Part shown: positions 43,522-43,594 of the stretch, in pieces
Layout: each line of letters begins with the position of its first letter
Position numbering within the stretch: the first letter of the stretch is position 1
Source of the DNA: Streptomyces pristinaespiralis
GTDB taxonomy: Bacteria; Actinomycetota; Actinomycetes; Streptomycetales; Streptomycetaceae
Reading direction: 5' to 3'
Length of the DNA stretch: 64,000 bases
Assembly: GCF_001278075.1 (NCBI RefSeq)
Contig: NZ_CP011340.1
Location: 806,001-870,000, forward strand
Notes under the pieces: model-generated
Seen by the model: the letters and a program-made list of their open reading frames with translations, nothing else
Database searches by the model: none
Told to the model about the DNA's origin: nothing
Position numbers and translations under genes: made by a program

Positions 43522-43594
43522 CTGTACAGCAAGCCTGTTCAGTTTTGCTGTTCAGCTTGGCTGTTCAGTCCGGCTGTTCAGTTCTGCTGCACAG
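43522..43594. repeat. Six 13-bp-phased CTGttCAG repeats between enolase and marR
   Basis: Octamers start at 43522, 43535, 43548, 43561, 43574 and 43587, exactly 13 bp apart: CTGTACAG, four CTGTTCAG and CTGCACAG. Each is palindromic or near-palindromic. The array fills most of the gap between the divergent genes, with the last copy 25 bases before the MarR ATG, and is a probable multi-site operator for that regulator. Confidence 0.85.

Follow-up and report, generated by a model that had tools for sequence, protein, structure and literature searches.

Operators of MarR-family regulators are usually treated as single palindromes of 16–20 bp. The OhrR-type operator (TACAATTAAATTGTA) is a single 15 bp palindrome of TACAR-N5-YTGTA geometry, and OhrR itself is a thiol sensor with an N-terminal reactive cysteine. 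Helically phased regulator arrays, in which several protein units are placed at a fixed step, are represented by BldC and EthR, whose families and periods differ from those of the MarR ladder described here. Within the MarR family, PecS, CrtR and BldR resemble the present array in their long protected stretches (20–100 bp for PecS, 52 bp for CrtR and 40 bp for BldR), CrtR additionally in its divergent intergenic region, and several sites or dimers are supposed for CrtR and PecS in the available part of PMC6739363. That part of the source describes no regular repeat for the three systems, and the CrtR authors found no inverted repeats (PMC6739363), whereas the array analysed here shows strict 13 bp phasing and growth by whole units. 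An earlier note on this DNA had considered a multi-site array over the enolase gene to be atypical for MarR; the three precedents, as presented in the portion of PMC6739363 consulted, argue otherwise, and the array covers the marR promoter as well as that of the enolase gene. Multi-dimer MarR operators are already known; the phased, expandable ladder is new. No earlier description of a 13 bp array was found in the literature searched, from whose scope subscription papers were mostly absent.

By annotation, the same gene pair is present in Streptomyces coelicolor as SCO7639/SCO7638 (orthology is assumed), and no 13 bp array is described there in the accessible text of PMC9739823 and PMC6637917. 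The SCO7638 protein is abundant in S. lividans according to the proteome abundances reported in the available part of PMC7244524, and its level is higher with plentiful phosphate in that of PMC8981147. A 2025 paper states, in the text available, that there is no information on enolase gene expression in Streptomyces and gives sco7638 as very low (PMC12727718). The nearest solved relatives of the regulator by sequence are Rv0880 of M. tuberculosis (PDB 4YIF; E = 2.1e-18) and PDB entry 2HR3 (E = 5.1e-21); no operator of Rv0880 was found in the accessible portions of the literature searched.

The window, the whole stretch of DNA analysed, comprises 64,000 nucleotides of the 8.53 Mb, single-contig genome of S. 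pristinaespiralis. Six CTG-NN-CAG octamers with a 13 bp period occupy positions 43522..43594 (no strand assigned) between an enolase gene, eno2, and a divergent marR gene: CTGTACAG at 43522, CTGTTCAG at 43535, 43548, 43561 and 43574, and CTGCACAG at 43587, with every step exactly 13 bp. The three-unit pattern CTGNNCAG-N5-CTGNNCAG-N5-CTGNNCAG has four exact overlapping matches in the array and none elsewhere in the window; with up to three mismatches it has five matches in the window, a number reached in none of 100 shuffles (mean 0.07). Across the whole genome, the two-unit pattern matches the array (five overlapping matches) and one further position, 3,004,595, compared with two matches for the reversed-pattern control. 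The positions, spacing and neighbours that the earlier note gave for the octamers are thus confirmed, as is its placement of the array over a second enolase gene, where it covers the inferred eno2 promoter. Its description of all six as palindromes is not: only CTGTACAG is a perfect palindrome, and the other five combine the constant CTG and CAG arms with an asymmetric centre. Two further tandem repeats are present in the window, at 2467-2602 (30 bp unit, 4.6 copies) and 62657-62766 (35 bp unit, 3.2 copies).

The eno2 gene (42151..43449, reverse strand) encodes a 432-residue enolase that scores 631.4 bits against TIGR01060 (cut-off 300) and contains motifs (40 protein letters) that we take to be the enolase active-site motifs. 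A housekeeping-type enolase gene, eno1, lies elsewhere in the genome at 5,171,553 (G000:C1:5171553) and its product is 59% identical to that of eno2; the window enolase is therefore the second one. The eno2 start was chosen from the upstream GGGAAGGACC, a putative ribosome-binding site read from the sequence at 43454..43463 (reverse strand) with a similar block in many relatives, and from the recurrence of the same start in relatives. The marR gene (43619..44059, forward strand) encodes a 146-residue protein lacking cysteine, the winged-helix domain of which exceeds the curated Pfam cut-offs for PF12802 (40.4 bits, cut-off 27) and PF01047 (38 bits, cut-off 24.6). Its score of 93.1 bits against NF052438, the Rv0880 family, lies below the equivalog cut-off of 220 and does not place it in that family.

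Full-length MarR orthologues (74–100% identity; the next-best near-full-length match has 54%) are found in 38 of a sample of 150 Streptomyces genomes. All 38 face a divergent enolase gene (79–100% identity), with two or more strict octamers upstream of each. Strict arrays of at least four units occur in 18 of the 150 genomes, all among the 38 with a full-length orthologue and in none of the other 112, while the reversed-pattern control gives three of 150. One genome (G017) retains a truncated 68-residue MarR remnant (78% identity) without enolase or array. In a family-level sample, eight of 150 genomes, including the source genome itself, contain a strict array of at least four units (control, two of 150), and comparison of coordinates places all seven of the others next to a MarR orthologue. 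Of the 159 strict octamers at the 38 orthologues, 154 keep to a single phase within their locus, and the distance from one octamer to the next is a multiple of 13 in 118 of 121 cases. Among the best 80 of 156 named loci, which include Micromonospora, Promicromonospora, Streptacidiphilus and Actinacidiphila, every one has at least one strict octamer, and an enolase gene was found in 79, always divergent; at L167, 280 bp of contig precede marR before the sequence breaks off. The best enolase segment was partial at first pass in L104, L118, L149 and L166, and further segments complete most of each.

The genus and named-locus sets overlap and were merged into 104 distinct upstream regions, which are related to each other and hence are not independent trials. 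These contain 412 strict octamers (Markov-control mean 15.6, maximum 30 in 200 controls), of which 111 are perfect palindromes, and the step to the next octamer is a multiple of 13 in 297 of 308 cases (exactly 13 in 255), compared with 19 of 278 in the controls. The comparison of repeat number across relatives that the earlier note had proposed thus gives between one and ten strict octamers per region, with a conserved 13 bp register; the spacers vary among relatives while the arms and the register hold.

The array goes with MarR rather than with the enolase. No strict octamer lies within 300 bp upstream of eno1 or of any of nine eno2-like genes (69–78% identity) that lack marR; these genes make up the enolase-side comparison, a set distinct from the second enolase copies of ∼60% identity that occur in other genomes. 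Conversely, none of 20 MarR paralogues (40–55% identity) has an enolase gene within the 2.4–5.4 kb fetched, and five of them carry YTGYNCAR octamers paired at exactly 13 bp, in seven pairs altogether where the controls average 0.01. Assignment of the array to the enolase is rejected on account of these array-less eno2-like genes and of the octamer-bearing paralogues, which have no enolase in the DNA fetched. Fifteen of the 20 paralogues lack an exact 13 bp pair, six of these having no strict octamer; several others have a single octamer flanked at 13 bp by degenerate ones, and octamer pairs are also spaced by 8, 14, 16, 24, 26, 34 and 39 bp. The 13 bp habit therefore seems, as far as these sequences indicate, to be a trait of some members of this MarR subgroup. 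Upstream of the paralogue at L080 (−93 to −62), four CTGCACAA octamers recur every 8 bp near 13 bp-spaced CTGTACAA/TTGTACAA.

The paralogues at L063 and L067 face hydrolases of the β-lactamase superfamily (divergent genes 2244-2912 and 247-1449, the two genes tested), with an exact 13 bp octamer series at L067 and degenerate neighbours at L063; a similar operator style may control another type of gene there. Where eno2-like enolases lack marR (e.g. L092:2367-3233 and L093:2347-3204), the intergenic region is different. The divergent gene starts alike in eight of these nine loci (L087–L091, L092, L093 and L094), and Pfam searches of two of the eight (L092 and L093) identify it as an HxlR regulator fused to an AhpC/TSA (peroxiredoxin-like) domain, possibly a built-in redox sensor.

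Both predicted promoters overlap the array. A putative eno2 −10 box, TACAGT (43521..43526, reverse strand), is fused to the first octamer, and its TANNGT pattern does not vary among the orthologues that could be anchored (37 of 37; L038 has no anchor). In all of these the first unit, read on the eno2 strand, runs on as CTGTANNGT; by a looser test, CTGTANNNT is present somewhere in the last 200 bases of all 104 distinct regions. The conserved CTGTANNGT element is read as a putative eno2 −10 box that has merged with a half-site. Streptacidiphilus pinicola (L123) lacks most of the eno2 leader, and the inferred −10 box ends six bases before the eno2 ATG; eno2 is apparently leaderless there, and the fit of the box to such a start supports the −10 assignment. 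On the other side, a putative marR −10 box, TAAAGT (43608..43613, forward strand), lies five bases before the ATG; columns −11 to −6 are conserved in the 38 orthologues and TANNNT stands 5–6 nt ahead of the marR start in 102 of 104 regions. Since this box is only 5–6 bases from the start, the marR mRNA is probably leaderless. The two putative −10 boxes bracket the array, and the expected −35 regions of both genes fall inside it; the orthologue alignments show no conserved TTGACA-like −35 box where one would be expected relative to the two −10 boxes. A role of the array at the RNA level, as a leader or riboswitch, is unlikely given that it lies upstream of both inferred start sites.

The array has the general features of a MarR-type operator: it is an inverted repeat beside the regulator's own gene in a divergent arrangement, near-palindromic about the spacer in the first unit of relatives and less so in the interior. 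The operator is probably a 15 bp element centred on the 5 bp spacer, so that each octamer would be the junction of two overlapping operators. Five such operators are predicted (none with an assigned strand): TACAG-CAAGC-CTGTT at 43525..43539, corresponding to the unit that is most conserved in relatives, and, from the periodicity, TTCAG-TTTTG-CTGTT at 43538..43552, TTCAG-CTTGG-CTGTT at 43551..43565, TTCAG-TCCGG-CTGTT at 43564..43578 and TTCAG-TTCTG-CTGCA at 43577..43591. This spacer-centred dyad is favoured because the array tends to end in half-octamers and because the most conserved unit is symmetric about its spacer. In the unit nearest eno2, TACAG is followed by CAATG (69 of 103) or CATTG (9 of 103) and then by CTG, giving CAWTG in 78 of the 103 regions for which the first TACAG unit was counted; TACAG-CAWTG-CTG is palindromic around the spacer. 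The inner CAG half of the first unit is intact in 95 of 104 regions (nine lack it at the tested position) and the outer CTG half in one of 104, a loss that is confounded by the overlapping −10 box. Where the array breaks down towards marR, the first failing unit retains its inner half in 21 of 65 cases and its outer half in three of 65. The spacer-centred unit also shares its arm spacing with the OhrR operator; the window MarR has no cysteine, which sets it apart from thiol sensors of the OhrR type. Across the genome, TACAG-N5-CTGTA with at most one mismatch occurs at 13 sites per strand and the reversed-pattern control at 29, so that no further regulon site is claimed.

The earlier note had taken the octamers themselves as the MarR operators; in such a reading each CTG-NN-CAG with its flanks would form one dimer site and the spacers would serve as linkers. 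The note's link to MarR stands; the octamer-centred dyad is tenable but the less probable placement. It draws support from the arms, which are the most regular feature of the array, and from sites of some paralogues (L065, L066 and L068) that look symmetric around one CTGTACAG. The interior spacers are moreover polar, with G before CTG in 88–92%, and hardly symmetric: complementarity is 0.25 between spacer positions 1 and 5 and 0.31 between positions 2 and 4, where column composition predicts 0.25 and 0.23, respectively. This indicates a polarity of the array beyond that of a simple symmetric dimer site. Degenerate interior octamers keep CTG in 32 of 51 cases but CAG in 14 of 51, a bias that weakens the argument from the array ends. 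Against an octamer-centred site stand the tendency of the array to end in half-octamers, the symmetry of the most conserved unit about its spacer, and the 5 bp separation of the CTG and CAG centres within an octamer, which would probably be too small to fit a recognition helix into each of two successive major grooves.

With spacer-centred sites, the array is best read as a multi-operator site through which the adjacent MarR would repress and co-regulate the eno2 and marR promoters, a reading to which a probability of roughly 0.7 is assigned. The account of binding, stoichiometry and ligand response that follows is a proposal drawn from the sequence. Each MarR dimer would read a spacer-centred palindrome of the TACAG-N5-CTGTA type, and neighbouring operators would share the two central bases of an octamer, placing their centres 13 bp apart (∼1.24 turns, 86°). 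The strongest site would be that at the eno2 end, its outer half merged with the eno2 −10 box, while the other units would stretch across the −35 regions of eno2 and of leaderless marR. Without ligand, several dimers would fill the ladder and shut both promoters, making marR autorepressed; a ligand, perhaps a glycolytic intermediate or a xenobiotic, would free the dimers and co-induce eno2 and marR. The number of units, which changes by whole 13 bp steps, would set the affinity or steepness of the response. The available part of PMC3737563 gives a footprint of 22–24 bp for the MarR protein SCO3205. This is longer than 13 bp, so that dimers would either interleave at ∼86° or occupy every second site, 26 bp from the next and almost on the other face of the helix; as both promoters are covered, autorepression and co-induction would be expected in either filling mode.

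Alternatively, MarR bound to the array might activate eno2, or control it as a dual regulator, with dimers at the −35 region recruiting RNA polymerase to a promoter that has no good −35 box. This is unlikely. The want of a conserved TTGACA-like −35 box at either promoter would suit such a role, but degenerate −35 boxes are common in Streptomyces, and the overlap of the first unit with the putative eno2 −10 box is a repressor position. In the available part of PMC9739823, the authors interpret the joint abundance of SCO7639 and SCO7638 in S. lividans as positive regulation; such co-abundance is equally expected if one array derepresses both genes.

A bolder extension of the repressor reading, itself speculative and improbable as a whole, is that the ladder seeds a short helical MarR–DNA filament, since operators overlapping every 13 bp would force the dimers to interleave at ∼86° steps, with steepness tuned by gain or loss of 13 bp rungs, and that the locus is a mobile, self-regulated spare-enolase cassette that would replace or back up the housekeeping enolase when the latter is inhibited or damaged, for example by SF2312-like antibiotics or oxidative stress. 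The control of a spare enolase by regulators of the ligand type suggests that inhibition of, or damage to, the main enzyme would induce it. SF2312 from Micromonospora is a natural enolase inhibitor according to the accessible part of PMC6863902, and its link to the eno2–marR locus is hypothetical.

The distribution of the pair bears on the mobile part of this proposal. MarR copies in Micromonospora (L111, L144, L164 and L166) and Promicromonospora (L125 and L137) are 85–89% identical to the window MarR, and at L148 the eno2–marR pair and its array lie on plasmid SNP1 of Streptomyces nigrescens HEK616; these identities and the plasmid copy suggest horizontal transfer of the pair. Matches to the five window genes neighbouring the pair were sought beside it in the best 80 of 156 named loci (E of 1e-8, 2 kb flanks) and none of the five gave one, the flanks bringing three of the five into range (44128, 44733 and part of 41384). 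Given that no in-range neighbour accompanies the pair elsewhere, its occurrence in several genera and the plasmid copy, eno2 with its regulator behaves like a cassette.

Pho boxes are direct GTTCACC-like repeats every 11 bp. That the repeats are such boxes bound by PhoP is very improbable; the idea was raised for the S. coelicolor enolase gene sco7638, the promoter of which has two putative Pho boxes, with a slight, not significant rise of the transcript in a phoP mutant (available part of PMC7244524), and CTGTTCAG does contain GTTCA. GTTCACC-like pairs at 11 bp are present in seven of 104 regions compared with 72 of 104 at 13 bp, the latter mirroring the array; no octamer with GTTCA is present in 40 of the 104 regions, and the array is missing from the nine eno2-like genes that have no marR. 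The Pho-box reading is rejected on the grounds of the 13 bp period and the conservation pattern.

That the array is a functionless, minisatellite-like neutral repeat is scarcely credible, for although unit number varies (one to ten strict octamers) and neighbouring units resemble each other slightly more than random ones do, the spacers diverge while CTG/CAG and the register are fixed in 104 regions from several genera, and the array keeps to a single regulator. The units probably do duplicate, since all seven variable bases are identical in 7.7% of 78 adjacent pairs compared with 2.4% for random units. The sequence evidence as a whole points to a real, conserved and functional-looking MarR operator ladder.

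A phased ladder with a naturally varying number of rungs offers a ready test series for the effects of repressor number and of helical phasing on cooperativity. For the second Streptomyces enolase, the ladder provides a candidate regulator and promoter map and a lead to the inducer.
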